From assembly GCA_021323535.1 (NCBI GenBank), contig JAJONO010000037.1:1-45885 (forward strand): DNA of 45,885 nt, written 5' to 3'. This document shows positions 4,530 to 30,081 of this stretch, in pieces. A program made the translations under genes and the position numbers. Positions within the stretch are counted from its first letter, which is position 1, and every line of letters starts with the position of its first letter. The notes beneath the pieces are model-generated. The model searched no databases. It saw only the letters and a program-made list of their open reading frames with translations, and was not told the origin of the DNA. The stretch is from Bacteroidota bacterium. GTDB taxonomy: Bacteria; Bacteroidota; Bacteroidia; B-17B0; Aurantibacillaceae.

Positions 4530-7500
4530 CGCGTTCCTGTATTTTTCAAAATCGCAACTCTTCCAATCTTTTGTTTATCTCTACCTCTCTGTTTGTACTT
4601 CACCTTACAGGTGTAAACACCGTCCTGGCAAATCTGTCCTTTATATTTTCCATCCCAGGCAACGTTGGTTCCCGATCCTTCAAAGATTTGTTCGCCCCAC
4701 CTGTCGAATACTGTTAATGTAACCTGCGAAATATTGTAGCACACCGGATAAAAAATATCGTTGAGGCCATCTTCGTCTGGCGTGAATGTATTCGGCAACC
4801 AGATCTCAGACTCACAATCATCTACTTTAATTTCATCACTAACCTTGCAACCAGTAACTGTTGCCGTAACATAATACATTCCCGGAACATTAACTTCTAT
4901 TGACGGTTCTGTGCTTCCCGTGGACCAGATATAATTACTCGCATTATAAAGATGAGCGGATAGTATCAGCTTTTCTCCAATGCAAATCACCGTATCTTTT
5001 GAAACATTAAACACAGGAACATCATGAATTAAAACGTAAACACTATCTGTTGCAAAACAATGTCCCTGACTAACCTTTACCCAATAATAACCTGGAGAAG
5101 TTACACTGATGGCCTGAGTGGCGTTACCCGTGCTCCACTGATAATTACTTCCAGGATTGCCTGCATTCAGAATAAAAGCGGCGCCTGAACAGAAAGATGT
5201 GTCTTTACCAATGTTCACATTCAAATCTGATCTTACGATATTGATAACGTCAGCCGAAGAACATCCATTGGCTAATGTAACCATCACAGAATAGGTTCCT
5301 ACATTAGAAACATGAATGGTTTGAGCAGATTGAGAATTGCTCCAGTTATATGTGGCACCCGGATTACCAGCATCAAGATTTACAGAAATAATTTCGTCCT
5401 TGCAAAACAACTTATCGGCTCCAAGATTGACAAGAGGCGTATTTTTTATCAGCACACCCACTGTATCATAAATACTGCAATTTCCTATGTTAACCTGAAC
5501 CCAGTAATTACCAGAAGAAGAAGCATTGATTGTTTGAGTTGTGAGACCATTGCTCCATTGATACGAGTTACCCACACCCGCATTCAGAATAACCGGTATT
5601 CCCTGGCAAACTTCGATATCGGCCCCAAGATTTAATGTAGCGTTCGTAATAGTAATTTCATCTGTTCCAAAACATCCGTTACTGTTTACCAATACCGAAT
5701 ATGTTCCGGGCGCATTCACAGAAATTGTTTGTGCATTCTGCGCGTTGCTCCATGTATAAGTTGCTCCCGACACTCCTGCGTTGATACTAAATGAAGTACC
5801 TGGACACATAATTGTGTCATTTCCTAAATTTACACTTAAGCTCCCTGTAGATATATTAATTATATCGGAGGAGCTACATCCTGCCGCGTTTGTTACTACA
5901 ACAGAATATCCTCCCACCGCAGTCGCCTGAATTGTTTGCGTGGTTTGCCCGGTATTCCACAAATATGAAAGTCCCGGATTCTGTGCGTTGAGTGTAAAAG
6001 AAAATGATGAATTACAGGTGTTCAGATCGGGGCCAAGATTTACAGTTGGACCTGAGGCAACACTCACCGTTTTTACCGCCATTGTACTTGAACAGGCGCC
6101 TTTAGAAACAACCAGGGAATATGTTCCTGATTGATTTAAACCTGCGTTCCCTATTAAAATATTCTGCGTTGAAGAAGTAAAACTGTTTGGACCTGACCAC
6201 AGAAAACTGCTACCCGGTGGCGCATTACCATATAACTTAATGCTATCCCCAACACACAATAAGGTATTGCCTGTAACTGCAACGGTTGGAGGCGCCACAA
6301 CAATTATTTTTTTACAATAATCGGATTTATTGATCTGTGTTTCATTAACGGTAAGATTAATGTAAAACGTTCCTGTGCTCACGTAAGAAATCGGAGGAGG
6401 TGTTTGAAACACCGAAGAAGGAATTGATGCGTTTGTGCAAGGAGGATAGTAGATCCTTGATAACGTGTTGTTGGATACATTTGGTATCATCGCAAACAAA
6501 GTGTCTCCACTTCTGTATCGCTCAATTGAATGTGGAAAAGAAAAACCTGCAATATTTCCGAATGAAGTTGTGATAATAGGACCTGTTGGTCCATTCGTAA
6601 AATTCATATTCAGCAGATCGTTACCATACCTGTTGGTAATAAGTCCCCTTATCTGACCACATTCCACCCACACGTCTATTCCTCTTGGCCCATTGAGAGC
6701 GCCCGTGTTTCCAAGATTTACGCCGGTTGGCGTATTCAGAAGACTAGTACCAAAATCCAAACGACTGAGTGTATTATTGGTTTCATTTACAATATAACCA
6801 TACCAGTTTCCACCGTAGTTAATAATTGCAAGATCGTCGGGCTGACTCAAACCGCCAATGTTACCAAGGTTCACTCCTGTTGGTGTGTTATTGATACCGG
6901 AACCAAAATTGAGCCGTGTAATAGAATTTCCGAAAGCATTAGGCGTGAAAGCATAAGTGGTTCCGCCCGATGAAAACACCTGAAGACGCTGTGGATAAAC
7001 CATTCCACCAATATTTCCAAGGTTTACCGCAGTAGGCATGTTAGCTAAACTGTTCCCAAAATTAAAACGTACGAGCCGGTCATTGGCGCCGCCGCCGCCG
7101 CCTACCATAATACCATACCAGGTTCCGCCAACATTTTCGAGATACATGTCTTCCATGCTGATTGGAATCATCCCACCGAAATTCCCGAGATTAGTAGCTA
7201 CCGGCATATTAGCGAGGCTGCTCCCATAAGATAAACGCGATAAATTTGCACCCCAGTTGTTGGTGACAAAAGCATAATAATTGCTCCCATCTTTACCTAT
7301 CGAATAATACACCGGGCCGCCAAAAAAACCAATGTTCCCAAGATTTGTGGCAACAGGGGTAACATTTGTGTTGCCCATACAGAAATTCCAGTACCATGTC
7401 GTAGCAGGGCCTGTAGTTGTATTCTGAATAGTGAACGTTTGATTTACGCAAACCGTATCAGGCGCCGTAAAACCGGCAACTATCTGCTGAGACTTTAAGC

Positions 7501-26730: not shown

Positions 26731-27165
26731 TTACTTCACAAATTTTTTAATCAGAAAATCTACACTGATTCTTCCAGCGCCGAAAGTCATCAACACCAAC
26801 AGCATGAGAATATAATAAAGAGGAATTTCATAACCGTTATCTGAAGAAGGAAAACCATTTTCCCAATGAACAGTTTTAATGGCAACTATCATTGTGATAA
26901 TTAACGGAAGAGAAATGATTCGCGTTGCTAAACCAAGAGTCAACAAAAATACACCAGCCATTTCTGTTGTTGCGGCAAGATACGCGTTCAGCTTCGGCAG
27001 CGGCATTCCCATTCCAGCAAACCATTCGGCAATGGCGTTAATGTCGGCCCACTTATTTTTTGCAGGTTCCCAGAATCCGTAAGCAAGGATCAAACGTAAA
27101 AGAAGCAGAATAACATCTTGTCCTTTGTTGGTGATGTCTTCATACTTTGATAAAATTTTCCTCAT
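26731..27165 (-). CDS. DoxX family membrane protein (bufferin-cluster BufD/HvfD-like)
   Basis: This 144-residue protein has about four membrane segments (about 17-30, 58-78, 82-98, 112-130) and the DoxX layout: RLILAYGFWEPAKNKW, WFAGMGMPLPKLNAYLAATTEMAG and GLATRIISLPL. DoxX proteins are small quinone/redox-associated membrane proteins of poorly defined function. Here the gene follows the DUF2063 gene by 6 bases on the same strand. DoxX is the usual fourth member of hvf/buf clusters in Proteobacteria, and this context gives it a likely role in peptide-mediated metal handling. Confidence 0.85.
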   Translation of the reverse strand: MRKILSKYEDITNKGQDVILLLLRLILAYGFWEPAKNKWADINAIAEWFAGMGMPLPKLNAYLAATTEMAGVFLLTLGLATRIISLPLIITMIVAIKTVHWENGFPSSDNGYEIPLYYILMLLVLMTFGAGRISVDFLIKKFVK

Positions 27166-27171
27166 AAAATC

Positions 27172-27930
27172 TTAAGCTAAAAACCCAATAATGAAGTTGC
27201 GTTGCTTTAGATCGTTTATAAATTCGAGAGAACGATCCTTCAATAATTTAATATCGTTGATCTGGAACAATGAATTGGCTTCAACAAGAATGTCTTTAAG
27301 TATTGCTCCGTTTTTTAAATTTTCGAGAATGTAGGTATAGAACATGGAAAGATCGACAAACTGAACGTTGCCGCTTTCCTTCTCACGATAAATGAGTAAA
27401 AAATAATCTCCTTTTTTTTCTGCGAGTCCATCTGTTGGCGCAGTAGTGTGCACAGGATATTCGAGCTTCACTAAAATATTTTCAGGATTTATTGCAATAG
27501 GATCGCTCACCCAATCCCCTTCTTGTTTTACCTTTGGATACTCAATATCTTCCATAGTATGAACTTCGAGTTCGAGCCATTCGAAATATAAAAGATCGTT
27601 TAAGAAAGGAATATTTAATTTTTCCTGTATGTTTTTTTCTTTGCAATAGCCATAAAACTCCAGTGGCATTTTCCACACCTGGGGCGTTTGACATTTATGC
27701 TCCGAATAAAACGTCTGCACAAGATCTTTCCAGATCTCATTGTCTAAAAAACTATAAGTAATAGGATATGCCGTTTCGATAATATCTTCGGCAATGTTGT
27801 AACACAGGCGACGATACTGATACAGATTATCTTTATTGATATCGATCAGGTTATCGGGTGTAATACCTGTTCTGCAATAATCTGCAAGAATAGATTGTTG
27901 TGAATATGTTTCTTTTTTAAGCAGCGACAT
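27172..27930 (-). CDS. DUF2063 family protein, MNIO partner (BufC/HvfC-like)
   Basis: This 252-residue soluble protein has an N-terminal helical domain of the DUF2063 type (about 10-95). Markers are ILADYCRTGITPDNLIDINKDNLYQYRRLCYNI (split over two helices) and AYPITYSFLDNEIWKDLV. A second, beta-rich region (about 130-250) follows, with HTTAPTDGLAEKKGDYFLLIYREKES. DUF2063 proteins are the established partners of DUF692/MNIO enzymes and are thought to bring the precursor peptide to the enzyme. Its start overlaps the MNIO 3' end by 14 bases, so the two should be made together. Confidence 0.85.
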   Translation of the reverse strand: MSLLKKETYSQQSILADYCRTGITPDNLIDINKDNLYQYRRLCYNIAEDIIETAYPITYSFLDNEIWKDLVQTFYSEHKCQTPQVWKMPLEFYGYCKEKNIQEKLNIPFLNDLLYFEWLELEVHTMEDIEYPKVKQEGDWVSDPIAINPENILVKLEYPVHTTAPTDGLAEKKGDYFLLIYREKESGNVQFVDLSMFYTYILENLKNGAILKDILVEANSLFQINDIKLLKDRSLEFINDLKQRNFIIGFLA

Positions 27931-28756
27931 GTTTGTTCTGCCATTTTTTTGAAATAATGTTATCCATGCGGGTGAGTTCGCCCTGCAGTTCTGATAGTTC
28001 GGGAATATTAAAATCTCTCTCCAATAAAACAGGCACCGGTTTTACCAGATCAATGGCGTATTCAAATAATTCAAACACAGGGTCGATCACTGCCTGGCCG
28101 TGTGTGTCAATTATCAGAGTATCCGAAACCTGTTCATGGCCCGCCATGTGAATGTAGGCCACTTTATCGAGAGGAAGTTTGTGCAGGAACTCTTTCGTAT
28201 CGTATTTATGATTGAAAGAATTTACGTACACATTGTTGATGTCGAGCAGCATGTTGCAACCCGATTCGTTAACGATTGCTGAAATAAATTCATGTTCTTT
28301 CATTTCAGCGGCAACGGGTGTATAGTAGGAAACATTTTCCAATACCAGTGGCTGCTCTAAAATATCCTGCACCGTTTTGATGCGCTCCACAATGTGTTTT
28401 ACGGCATCTTTGCGAAAAGGGATCGGAAGCAAGTCATACAAATGCGCGTTATCACATTTTGAATAACTCAGATGTTCCGAATAAATTTTTACGTTGTATT
28501 GCTTCAGAAATTTTTTAACCTGCTTAACAAACTCAACATCTAGCTCATCAGGACTACCAATAGAAAGTGAAAGTCCGTGACAGGTGATGGGAAATTTTTC
28601 GGCTGCTTTATCGAGTTGTTTTTTCCAGTAGCCGCCCATGCCTATCCAGTTTTCAGGTGCCATCTCTATAAAAGATGGTTTCAGAACTTCGCTGGTGATA
28701 AGATCCTCAGCAAAATCCTTACGGAAACCTAAACCTGTATATTGATTGTTGTTCAT
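27917..28756 (-). CDS. DUF692/MNIO family multinuclear iron oxidative enzyme (BufB/HvfB-like)
   Basis: This 279-residue TIM-barrel protein has the full set of DUF692 metal ligands: His60 (ITCHG), Glu94-His95 (YSEHLS), Glu140 (LVLENVS), Asp172 (LLDINN), His203 and His207 (IHMAGHE), Asp217 and His219 (IDTHGQ) and Glu246 (LLERD). MNIO enzymes use two or three iron ions and oxygen to remodel cysteines in ribosomally made peptides, for example to thiooxazoles or oxazolone/thioamide. The Cys-repeat peptide encoded just upstream is the obvious substrate. A terminator hairpin ends only about 4 bases before the start codon, so expression should be lower than that of the peptide. Confidence 0.93.
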   Translation of the reverse strand: MNNNQYTGLGFRKDFAEDLITSEVLKPSFIEMAPENWIGMGGYWKKQLDKAAEKFPITCHGLSLSIGSPDELDVEFVKQVKKFLKQYNVKIYSEHLSYSKCDNAHLYDLLPIPFRKDAVKHIVERIKTVQDILEQPLVLENVSYYTPVAAEMKEHEFISAIVNESGCNMLLDINNVYVNSFNHKYDTKEFLHKLPLDKVAYIHMAGHEQVSDTLIIDTHGQAVIDPVFELFEYAIDLVKPVPVLLERDFNIPELSELQGELTRMDNIISKKWQNKHVAA

Positions 28757-28760
28757 GGGC

Positions 28761-28795
28761 TAAAAAGAAAAACCCTCCCGCTGTTAGCGGAAGGG
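28761..28795 (-). terminator. Rho-independent terminator between peptide gene and MNIO gene
   Basis: In the minus-strand RNA, CCCUUCCGC and GCGGGAGGG pair over 9 bp (one U-G wobble) around a UAACA loop, followed by UUUUUCUUUUU. It lies in the 56-base gap inside what is otherwise an operon, with its U-tract touching the ribosome-binding region of the MNIO gene. It should allow partial read-through. Confidence 0.85.
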
Positions 28796-28812
28796 CATTC
28801 ATTATTTTTTGA

Positions 28813-29142
28813 TTAGTGAGGTTTTTTTTCGTCTTTGTGCTCACCTTTTTTCTCTCCGCATTTTCCTTCTCCGCATTTTCCGTCTTTAGCTTTTTTCTCG
28901 CCACATTTTGCGTCTTTAGCTTTTTTCTCTCCGCATTTTGCGTCTTTAGCTTTAGTAGCGTCTTTAGTTTCCGCTTTCTTCTCTCCGCAAGTAGCTTCGA
29001 TAGATTTAACTAATGAAGTACGAACTTCACCAGCAGTTCCAAGAGCGTTATACTCTAATAAACTTGTAGCTTTAACAGCTGAAACACTTAATAAAGCACC
29101 AGCGATCATTGACGCGGTAACTAATGTTGATTTTTTTTCCAT
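28813..29142 (-). CDS. Secreted Cys-repeat peptide, candidate bufferin-like MNIO precursor
   Basis: This 109-residue protein has an N-terminal signal peptide (about 1-25, KKSTLVTASMIAGALLSV then SAVKA). A short neutral spacer (26-50) and a low-complexity Lys/Glu/Gly tail with five Cys at 52, 70, 80, 90 and 95 follow. Each Cys sits in CGE; the unit KCGEKKAKDA repeats every ten residues, and the end is GKCGEGKCGEKKG. The GKCGEGKCG string is very close to the EGKCGEGKCG core of HvfA/bufferin peptides, whose cysteines are modified by MNIO enzymes and bind copper. The four following genes or sites (terminator, MNIO, DUF2063, DoxX) complete that system. Modification and copper binding are inferred, not shown. 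Confidence 0.88.
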   Translation of the reverse strand: MEKKSTLVTASMIAGALLSVSAVKATSLLEYNALGTAGEVRTSLVKSIEATCGEKKAETKDATKAKDAKCGEKKAKDAKCGEKKAKDGKCGEGKCGEKKGEHKDEKKPH

Positions 29143-29174
29143 TTTGTATTTTGTTTTTAAGTTATAGTCTAATA

Positions 29175-29200
29175 TACGACAAGGGGGAACCTTTCCTTAC
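29175..29200 (-). promoter_or_regulatory. Candidate ECF-type promoter of the Cys-repeat peptide gene
   Basis: On the minus strand GTAAGG (29195-29200) and CGTA (29175-29178) are separated by 16 bases, the normal ECF spacing. No TAnnTTTG box exists in this gap between the anti-sigma gene and the peptide gene. Control by the sigma factor encoded two genes upstream is inferred. Confidence 0.4.
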
Positions 29201-29209
29201 AGCGATAAA

Positions 29210-29491
29210 TTACTTTTTAGTTAAATTCTCTGTAATTAATTGATTTATAGCAAGTTTCTTTTTGGGAGAAATTGTAAGCTTATTAGGTTCCGCAACTGCC
29301 CTTAAAAGCGAGTCAATTTTATTGACCTGTTTAACGAAACGGCGGCAGTATTTACAGGTGGCCAGGTGGAACTTAAGAAGGAATTTTTCGGAAAAGCTCA
29401 GGTTCGCATAATCCTCTTTTGTTTTGAGGTATGACGCGTCCTTACAACCGAACTCGTACCATTTATACGTATGTGCTTTTAGTTCTTCCAT
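29210..29491 (-). CDS. Small soluble zinc-type anti-sigma factor
   Basis: This 93-residue protein has no membrane segment. It carries HLATCKYCRR, an HxxxCxxC zinc motif (His42, Cys46, Cys49) of the ZAS/zf-HC2 anti-sigma type, with a further Cys at 16. Helical regions on both sides could wrap the sigma factor. The stop of the sigma gene and the start of this gene overlap (TAATG), so the two proteins should be made in equal amounts. Zinc-type anti-sigma factors often release their partner upon thiol oxidation or metal exchange, which would suit control of a copper-handling peptide; this is inference. Confidence 0.85.
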   Translation of the reverse strand: MEELKAHTYKWYEFGCKDASYLKTKEDYANLSFSEKFLLKFHLATCKYCRRFVKQVNKIDSLLRAVAEPNKLTISPKKKLAINQLITENLTKK

Positions 29492-30081
29492 TATAATTTT
29501 ACCCAGTTCTTTTCAAGGCATTCACGGATCTGTAGTTTGGCCCTGTGCATGATCACCCAAAAGTTAGACGAGGTTAAATTGAATTCCTTACAAACTACCG
29601 GAGAATCGTTATCATCGAGCAAACTCATGGTGAAAACCCCTCGCCACTTGGCTGGCAGGCTATCGAGGCATTTTTCCAATATGTTAAAAAACTCTTTTGT
29701 TTCGGGTTGATGCTGCGCTTCATCCCAGTCCTTAGGTTTGGAATCGGGTTGCCAATGGCCCTTTTTCTGCTTGTTAAAATAATAATCGTAAGAAGGCGCC
29801 TCAACGCTGCTTAATTGCAGTGGCGATTCATTCCGTGTAGAGGCTTTTTTATAATGATCGATGATCTTATTTTTAAGAATACTTACCAGCCATGTCTTTT
29901 CGGAGGCCTGCCCCTTATAAGTATCACGGGCATTGAGCGCCGAAAGAAATGCATCCTGCACAAGATCTTCGGCCAGTTCCTGATTATTAACGCGGTAATA
30001 CGCGAAGCTGTAGAGGTAATCGGAATACCGTTCTACCCAATATTGCGGTTCGAGTTTGTTTGTATTTTCAGGAGTATCCAC
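29491..30081 (-). CDS. ECF-type sigma factor of the bufferin-like locus
   Basis: This 196-residue sigma factor has region 2 at about 14-80 (YLYSFAYYRVNNQELAEDLVQDAFLSAL, then TWLVSILKNKIIDHYKK). A longer than usual linker (about 80-125) follows, and region 4 at about 128-190 (LDSLPAKWRGVFTMSL and VCKEFNLTSSNFWVIMHRAK). The only plausible start is GTG 30081. A perfect -7 box, TACTTTTG, ends 6 bases before it, so the mRNA may begin at or next to the GTG. It lies 13 bases after the M16 peptidase stop but has this own promoter, and it overlaps the anti-sigma gene. Confidence 0.92.
   Translation of the reverse strand: MDTPENTNKLEPQYWVERYSDYLYSFAYYRVNNQELAEDLVQDAFLSALNARDTYKGQASEKTWLVSILKNKIIDHYKKASTRNESPLQLSSVEAPSYDYYFNKQKKGHWQPDSKPKDWDEAQHQPETKEFFNILEKCLDSLPAKWRGVFTMSLLDDNDSPVVCKEFNLTSSNFWVIMHRAKLQIRECLEKNWVKL

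Follow-up and report, generated by a model that had tools for sequence, protein, structure and literature searches.

What is made by six adjacent genes that join an extracytoplasmic function (ECF) sigma factor and a zinc-type anti-sigma (ZAS) protein to a Cys-rich peptide and the enzymes expected to modify it, and how is their expression controlled? We asked this of positions 26731–30081 of a 45,885-nucleotide stretch of DNA from a Bacteroidota bacterium of the Aurantibacillaceae (contig JAJONO010000037.1), which we refer to as the window. All six open reading frames lie on the minus strand, and we confirmed the order, positions and overlaps reported in an initial annotation of this DNA; in particular, the sigma stop codon and the ZAS start codon have one base in common (TAATG), and the MNIO and DUF2063 genes overlap by 14 bases. 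In our judgement the locus is quite likely the Bacteroidota form of the stress regulon in which sigmaE or RpoE2, a ZAS protein and a captophorin are brought together, a form that includes feedback through a promoter inside the sigma gene. New here, and absent from the initial annotation, are a candidate promoter of meningococcal sigmaE type that lies 5' of the peptide gene (in some relatives also 5' of genes for exported MsrA or MsrB), a putative second copy of this promoter within the sigma gene, and a likely regulon with Msr genes.

The gene order recurs in related loci

For comparison we used the 80 loci of named genomes, from Bacteroidota, Ignavibacteriota and a few other groups, whose MNIO matched that of the window best, which is not a random sample; the loci are kin, so that counts across them are not independent, and a tree was used for the synonymous test only. 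The gene order that the initial annotation singled out recurs, with sigma, ZAS, peptide and MNIO following one another at 47 of the 80 loci, which argues that the six-gene arrangement is not due to chance. The expected co-occurrence of peptide and MNIO genes held as well: a KCG-type peptide gene stands at 78 of the MNIO loci, a DUF2063 gene at all 80, and a DoxX gene within 2.7 kb at 48. One locus has a ZAS gene alone. In L108, one of the loci with neither gene beside the operon, the sigma-ZAS pair lies downstream, a few kilobases off, and in L119 (genome G006) the ZAS gene is found behind DoxX and not behind sigma. Among 392 genomes of the phylum, the window's own included, the HvfB model gave any match in 28 and a match over its cut-off in seven. 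Peptide-MNIO-DUF2063 loci akin to that of the window also occur in two metagenome-assembled genomes labelled Bdellovibrionales and Parachlamydiales (L093 and L112).

Protein families of the six genes

Lys-Cys captophorins are a described class in which an MNIO enzyme, a DUF2063 partner and a Cys-rich precursor with Lys-Cys repeats occur together (PMC12668002). The MNIO gene of the window (27917..28756, 279 amino acids) encodes an HvfB-type iron enzyme that scored 338.8 bits with Pfam MbnB_TglH_ChrH and 393.4 bits with NCBIfam HvfB (NF003818), above the cut-off of 360, and that can be aligned to the solved MNIO structure 3BWW. The HvfX-type membrane protein of the DoxX family (26731..27165, 144 amino acids) scored 71.8 bits with Pfam DoxX and 133.3 bits with HvfX (NF050144), over the equivalog cut-off of 80. 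The HvfC/PME1-like DUF2063 partner (27172..27930, 252 amino acids), which matches 3DEE, passed Pfam DUF2063 (PF09836; 45.9 bits, cut-off 27.2) and NGO1945_C (27.2 bits, cut-off 27), and the precursor peptide (28813..29142, 109 amino acids) passed the KCGExKCG_twice domain (21.8 bits, cut-off 19.5). Two scores count against a strict HvfA/HvfC identity: the DUF2063 protein reached 123.4 bits with the HvfC equivalog (NF050145; cut-off 142) over nearly its whole length, and the peptide fell well below the HvfA equivalog (NF050188; 30 bits, cut-off 95). Since the MNIO and DoxX proteins pass the HvfB and HvfX cut-offs and the other two pass only Pfam or domain cut-offs, we assign the cluster to the Lys-Cys captophorin class, with the MNIO and DoxX proteins as HvfB and HvfX by the NCBI cut-offs and the peptide and DUF2063 partner as more distant relatives of HvfA and HvfC.

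The peptide has five Cys residues, each followed by Gly, in ATCG, DAKCG, DGKCG and EGKCG motifs, and before them an N-terminal hydrophobic stretch that appears to be a signal peptide (here and below, we assigned signal peptides and lipoprotein N-termini by eye). KCG accounts for 76% of the 413 Cys residues in 79 such peptides, that of the window included. The window has in common with the oxazolin/captophorin systems HvfABC and FonABC a Lys-Cys repeat peptide, an MNIO with an Asp-Phe pair, a DUF2063 partner and a DoxX protein, but differs from them in that many motifs are DAKCG or DGKCG, not EGKCG, and in that the second Arg of the Lys-Cys-group MNIO enzymes seems to be Lys, as it is in 41 of 86 homologues. 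Both this residue and the Asp-Phe pair (ERDF) were equated by eye with those described for the group. In a manner similar to that of Neisseria and Haemophilus, the six genes probably make and control a copper-binding modified peptide. The same genome encodes a second, distant MNIO paralogue of 383 amino acids, away from the operon (G000, contig C123:9661-10335; positions 5293-6444, minus strand, of L131).

The sigma gene (29491..30081) has a GTG start and encodes 196 amino acids; its product scored 67.4 bits with Pfam Sigma70_r2 and 160.7 bits with TIGR02943, just short of the cut-off of 162.2, and is 33% identical to the sigma factor of the N. gonorrhoeae operon and 35% identical to that of the Acinetobacter operon over about 174 amino acids. 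The ZAS gene (29210..29491) encodes a cytoplasmic protein of 93 amino acids with the motif C16-x25-H42-x3-C46-x2-C49, which is exact in 46 of 53 sequences, HxxxCxxC being present in 52 of the 53 (window included). This protein scored 45.8 bits with NCBIfam antisigmaE, just below the cut-off of 50, and shares 30-36% identity over 44-47 amino acids with its proteobacterial counterparts; a search of the PDB returned weak matches only, among them RsiW at E 0.51.

Published counterparts in Neisseria and Haemophilus

In N. meningitidis, the operon NMB2140-2145 comprises a DoxX-like gene, NMB2141 to NMB2143 (then of unknown function), sigmaE and the ZAS anti-sigma factor MseR, and sigmaE also controls msrA/msrB (PMC2893595). 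Counterpart genes in N. gonorrhoeae include DUF692, DUF2063 and DoxX (PMC2954202), and gonophorin, which contains 5-thiooxazoles and was detected bearing one or two copper atoms (PMC12668002), would be the peptide product of the Neisseria operon NGO1948-1943. Control of the same kinds of gene by a sigma-ZAS pair has further published precedent (PMC3240639). From the gonococcal sequence we read the order DoxX, peptide, MNIO, DUF2063, sigma and ZAS, with a GTCAG...CGTCT promoter before DoxX; plasmids of Acinetobacter and Moraxella carry peptide, MNIO, DUF2063, sigma and ZAS genes with DoxX divergent, and the Moraxella operon is interrupted by an IS4 transposase. The Neisseria sigmaE operon and the window are alike in their six gene types, in the class of promoter and, probably, in having Msr in the regulon, and the motif residues of MseR and the window ZAS are spaced identically (a Cys, a His at +26, a Cys 4 residues further on and a last Cys 3 after that). 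The Neisseria operon differs in that the core genes come before sigma-ZAS, sigma is autoregulated and there is no element inside the sigma gene.

In H. influenzae, RpoE2 and the ZAS protein HrsE control msrAB and a cluster of DoxX, periplasmic peptide, UPF0276 and DUF2063 genes, a counterpart whose expression rises after hypochlorite and peroxide (PMC7907618). This system and the window both have a ZAS protein, an HvfABC-like cluster under an ECF sigma factor that also controls Msr genes (in the window's case, probably) and very limited autoregulation of sigma; in strain 2019 the cluster lies away from the sigma gene, whereas the window genes form one array. Because ZAS control is published for Neisseria and Haemophilus, it is not a novelty of the Bacteroidota. 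What stands, by sequence, of the initial annotation's proposal is a Bacteroidota counterpart with its own ECF sigma factor and soluble ZAS protein; the supposed contrast between ZAS here and NrsF in Proteobacteria does not, MseR and HrsE both being ZAS proteins.

The bufferin operons of Caulobacter are MNIO operons under the ECF sigma factor SigF, with a DUF2282 peptide and NrsF as the anti-sigma factor. ECF control of an MNIO operon would be shared with the window, in which neither DUF2282 nor NrsF was matched: none of the eight window proteins scanned with Pfam hit NrsF (PF06532), and the peptide had no Pfam match up to E 0.1, that is, none to the DUF2282 bufferin (Buf1). Of the Bufferin/Hvf-like identity first suggested we accordingly keep the HvfA/oxazolin-like Lys-Cys captophorin type and drop the DUF2282 bufferin.

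A candidate sigmaE-type promoter precedes the peptide gene

Between the ZAS and peptide genes, 30 bp 5' of the peptide start codon, lies the sequence TGTAAGG-N16-CGTATA (29173..29201, minus strand), a promoter-like element of the same type as the published meningococcal sigmaE promoter, whose consensus is GTMAGBWTT, a spacer of 12-13 bp and CGTCTAAH (PMC2893595). The simple pattern GTAAG-N15-18-CGW was found 5' of the peptide gene at 30 of 48 loci with a sigma or ZAS gene, compared with 4 of 30 loci without and 32 of 3900 dinucleotide shuffles. Before other genes of the array the pattern was rare (MNIO, 0/78; DUF2063, 0/78; DoxX, 1/47; sigma, 5/49). Of 49 sigma/ZAS loci, that of the window among them, 25 match the published meningococcal motif at 14 or more of its 17 positions, as do 6 of the 30 other loci and 44 of 2370 shuffles; the window promoter itself matches 13 of 17 and so falls below that threshold. 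We also considered autoregulation of sigma from its own upstream region and rejected it, since the motif lies within 300 bp of only 2 of 53 sigma genes (the looser pattern giving the 5 of 49 mentioned above).

These counts bear on the idea that the sigma-ZAS pair stands upstream by accident and regulates something else, the peptide operon being independent of it. That 32 of the 80 related loci have neither a sigma nor a ZAS gene beside the operon (at three of these the contig ends) is a point for this idea and against our own; the order fixed at 47 loci and the concentration of the peptide promoter at sigma/ZAS loci make it very improbable.

In four loci (L059, L068, L073 and L074), none of which has the sigma-promoter pattern, a near-palindrome, TTAGGA[AT]TCC, precedes the peptide gene and is possibly the site of another regulator. 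Four loci without sigma (L054, L057, L064 and L065; three labelled Ignavibacteriae/Ignavibacteriota and one 'bacterium') have in common a 136-amino-acid gene immediately 5' of that for the peptide, whose product looks by eye like a CoA-binding protein.

A second copy of the motif lies within the sigma gene

A second copy of the motif, TGTAAGG-N15-CGTCTA (29565..29592, minus strand), falls within the coding sequence of sigma, 73 bp 5' of the ZAS start codon, where it spans codons C164-K165 ... S171-S172-N173 of region 4 and is an exact match in the strict scan described below. The Cys164 codon is TGT in 52 of 53 sigma genes and is followed, with two exceptions among the 53, by AAG or CAG, and the codon of a variable Ser/Pro/Ala/Thr residue ends in CG in 44 of 53. 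We tested third bases against the codon usage of the respective locus across 186 codon columns in 50 distinct homologous sigma genes, leaving out L113 and L118 (repeat copies) and L119 (which has no element). The three highest z scores of the 186 columns, 7.0 (TGT), 10.5 (AAG) and 11.7 (NCG), fell in this element, against a mean over all columns of 1.1 and a standard deviation of 1.8; Asn173 (AAC) ranked fourth and Ser172 (TCT) sixth. Taken together, the constrained codons read TGTAAGG ... CGTCTAAC, the end of which is the meningococcal -10 box. On a tree of sigma from which the element columns were left out, column 171 underwent at least 17 amino acid changes and 4 third-base changes, compared with 15-26 third-base changes at sixteen other fourfold columns of sigma. 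Control tests of the other genes gave maxima of 7.1 for MNIO, in the overlap with the DUF2063 gene, 6.8 for DUF2063 and 4.5 for ZAS. The DUF2063 maximum is an unexplained outlier at codon 195 (gene 27172-27930; third base G in 24 of 50).

The operon could be as described and the constrained bases not a promoter, but a determinant of mRNA structure, a means of coupling the translation of sigma to that of anti-sigma, or a site bound by another protein; the somewhat raised scores of further downstream sigma codons (H179, z 4.9; R180, z 3.9) would fit such an explanation. The constrained bases, however, are those of both boxes of the peptide promoter at equal spacing (consensus TGTAAGGA...CGTCtAAc in sigma, TGTAAGGa...CGtctA before the peptide). 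In addition, the four loci in which the sigma codon is CAG (Gln) pair with a GTCAGG peptide promoter, although this covariation is a single event on the tree; among 46 sigma genes with AAG (two of them repeat copies), the peptide promoter has GTAAG in 36 and no clear match in 10. We therefore regard a role other than that of a promoter as unlikely. The simplest account is that a sigma-dependent promoter within the sigma gene would provide extra anti-sigma factor and perhaps transcribe the whole downstream array. A tie of the element to the anti-sigma gene is supported by L108, where the sigma-ZAS pair, although apart from the peptide operon, keeps the element.

Region 4.2 of a sigma factor contacts the -35 box. 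It is reasonably probable, in our estimate, that the DNA encoding region 4.2 here is itself a promoter for that sigma factor, and that this dual code has been kept across Bacteroidota and Ignavibacteriota with the promoter in part imposing the amino acids (one clade has Gln in place of Lys, and GTCAGG for GTAAG in the -35 box of its peptide promoter), the output being extra anti-sigma factor and thus a feedback that would be hard to lose without touching sigma. If true, this would be a rare instance of a regulatory site that shares its bases with the DNA-reading segment of the regulator acting on it. In E. coli the anti-sigma factor is RseA, which we take to be of a type unrelated to ZAS. The rseA promoter P3 is a sigmaE-dependent promoter within rpoE that drives the anti-sigma gene from a start 228 nt upstream of rseA (PMC8595263), so that the position of the putative promoter inside the window sigma gene has a precedent, the likeness being one of position; evidence for dual coding in region 4.2 is what the present analysis adds. 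Among the literature matches listed, we found no description of the operon with sigma/ZAS in Bacteroidota and none of a promoter inside such a sigma gene, which is weak evidence of absence, most subscription journals lying outside the coverage.

Candidate members of the regulon

In the window's own genome, three of 18 matches to TGTAAGG-N14-17-CGTM lie 19-32 bp 5' of plausible gene starts, namely those of the peptide, the only msrA found (whose product has a lipoprotein-like N-terminus) and an exported DsbH-like thioredoxin; of the others, one is inside the sigma gene and most of the rest are in open frames. We then compared Msr genes between 37 sigma genomes (36 of the 47 with sigma-ZAS and the window's own; one of the 36 has no msrA match, and the weak match L174, below cut-off, was left out) and 20 control genomes that belong to the window's class and gave no HvfB match (36 msrA matches, 30 with loci, 29 parsed). 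The motif precedes msrA in 16 of 45 cases in the sigma genomes and 1 of 29 in the controls (Fisher p 0.0009, uncorrected for kinship), the genomes for this comparison having been picked before the strict scan. All 16 motif-bearing MsrA proteins have lipoprotein-like N-termini, and the seven short MsrA proteins of cytosolic type in the sigma genomes lack the motif. For msrB the counts were 8 of 20 and 0 of 25, a difference that is biased upwards because the 18 genomes used for msrB were chosen after hits were known; the msrB set excludes three fragment matches, 3 sigma and 5 control loci that did not parse, and those 8 of the 38 control matches for which there was no locus.

A strict scan with TGTAAGG-N15/16-CGTMTA gave 59 matches in 24 of the 37 sigma genomes. 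Of these, 17 are sigma-internal and 11 precede the peptide gene; the remainder precede msrA (6), msrB (7), cyclopropane-fatty-acid-synthase-like genes (4), DsbH-like thioredoxin genes (2, one scanned with Pfam and the other assigned by eye), AhpC/TSA-family genes (2) and other genes (4), or lie within coding sequence (6). The reversed motif gave 31 matches; of the 30 that we read, 27 are in open frames and none stands before an Msr gene.

The four cyclopropane-fatty-acid-synthase-like genes (in L231, L236, L237 and L258; PF02353 in the one scanned with Pfam, the others by eye) are perhaps a membrane branch of the regulon. Another strict match, in L273 (genome G425), lies 31 bp before the gene for a small peptide that is rich in Met and Lys, contains MSDDKKM-like repeats and was judged by eye to be secreted.

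A model for control of the locus

We propose that a basal level of the sigma factor would be kept inactive by the cytoplasmic ZAS protein. Stress such as that caused by hypochlorite or copper would oxidise the ZAS thiols or strip the protein of its metal, setting sigma free to recognise TGTAAGG-N15/16-CGTMTA promoters. The promoter before the peptide gene would drive expression of the peptide, the MNIO, the DUF2063 partner and DoxX; the MNIO and its partner would convert the KCG cysteines to copper-binding heterocycles (by analogy, 5-thiooxazole), and the peptide would then be exported. Further promoters would act before exported MsrA or MsrB in some relatives and before the only msrA found in the window's own genome. 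Through the sigma-internal promoter, upstream of the anti-sigma gene, active sigma would raise the level of its own inhibitor, which would constitute negative feedback.

Regulation could instead be mainly a matter of metal sensing, for example by displacement of Zn by Cu at the ZAS site, and not of oxidant sensing. In favor of this alternative are the copper binding of captophorins and the frequent induction of such pathways by metal excess (PMC12668002); we nevertheless consider it doubtful, given that the likely regulon partners are proteins of oxidation repair (MsrA, MsrB, AhpC/TSA and thioredoxin-like) and that the Haemophilus counterpart is induced by hypochlorite and peroxide, as noted above (PMC7907618). 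Metal and oxidant signals may both act.

Several observations speak against the model of a sigma-ZAS-captophorin regulon with internal feedback. The simple promoter pattern is missing before the peptide gene at 18 of the 48 sigma/ZAS loci, and a search for the pattern in the loci of Acinetobacter and Moraxella gave no match. The sigma genes of Neisseria, Acinetobacter and Moraxella lack the sigma-internal element, as do five more distant alignable ECF genes (two others do not align); the element is degenerate in L047 and missing in L119. As to the regulon, the 18 matches in the window's own genome are not in excess of the 22 for the reversed motif, and the msrB of that genome has no motif in the stretch scanned; in the sigma genomes 29 of 45 msrA genes lack the motif, and in 3 of the 16 that have it the spacing to the first ATG is odd (3, 105 and 131 bp). 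Subtracting the 28 sigma-internal and peptide sites from the strict matches leaves 31, equal to the 31 for the reversed motif. Because match numbers do not exceed those of the reversed motif, the case for the regulon rests on the position of the matches and on the genes that follow them.

The model that we favor would extend the sigma-ZAS-captophorin-Msr regulon of Neisseria and Haemophilus to Bacteroidota and Ignavibacteriota. Such an extension suggests that modified copper-binding peptides and methionine repair are parts of one widespread envelope-oxidation response.

Neighboring genes

A gap of 13 bp separates sigma from the end of an upstream gene for a peptidase M16. We rejected this gene as a part of the system, as its one homologue in 100 loci scanned is not beside sigma and it is thus not a conserved neighbor. 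Acyltransferase and mraZ genes were likewise set aside, with one homologue each among the 100 loci.

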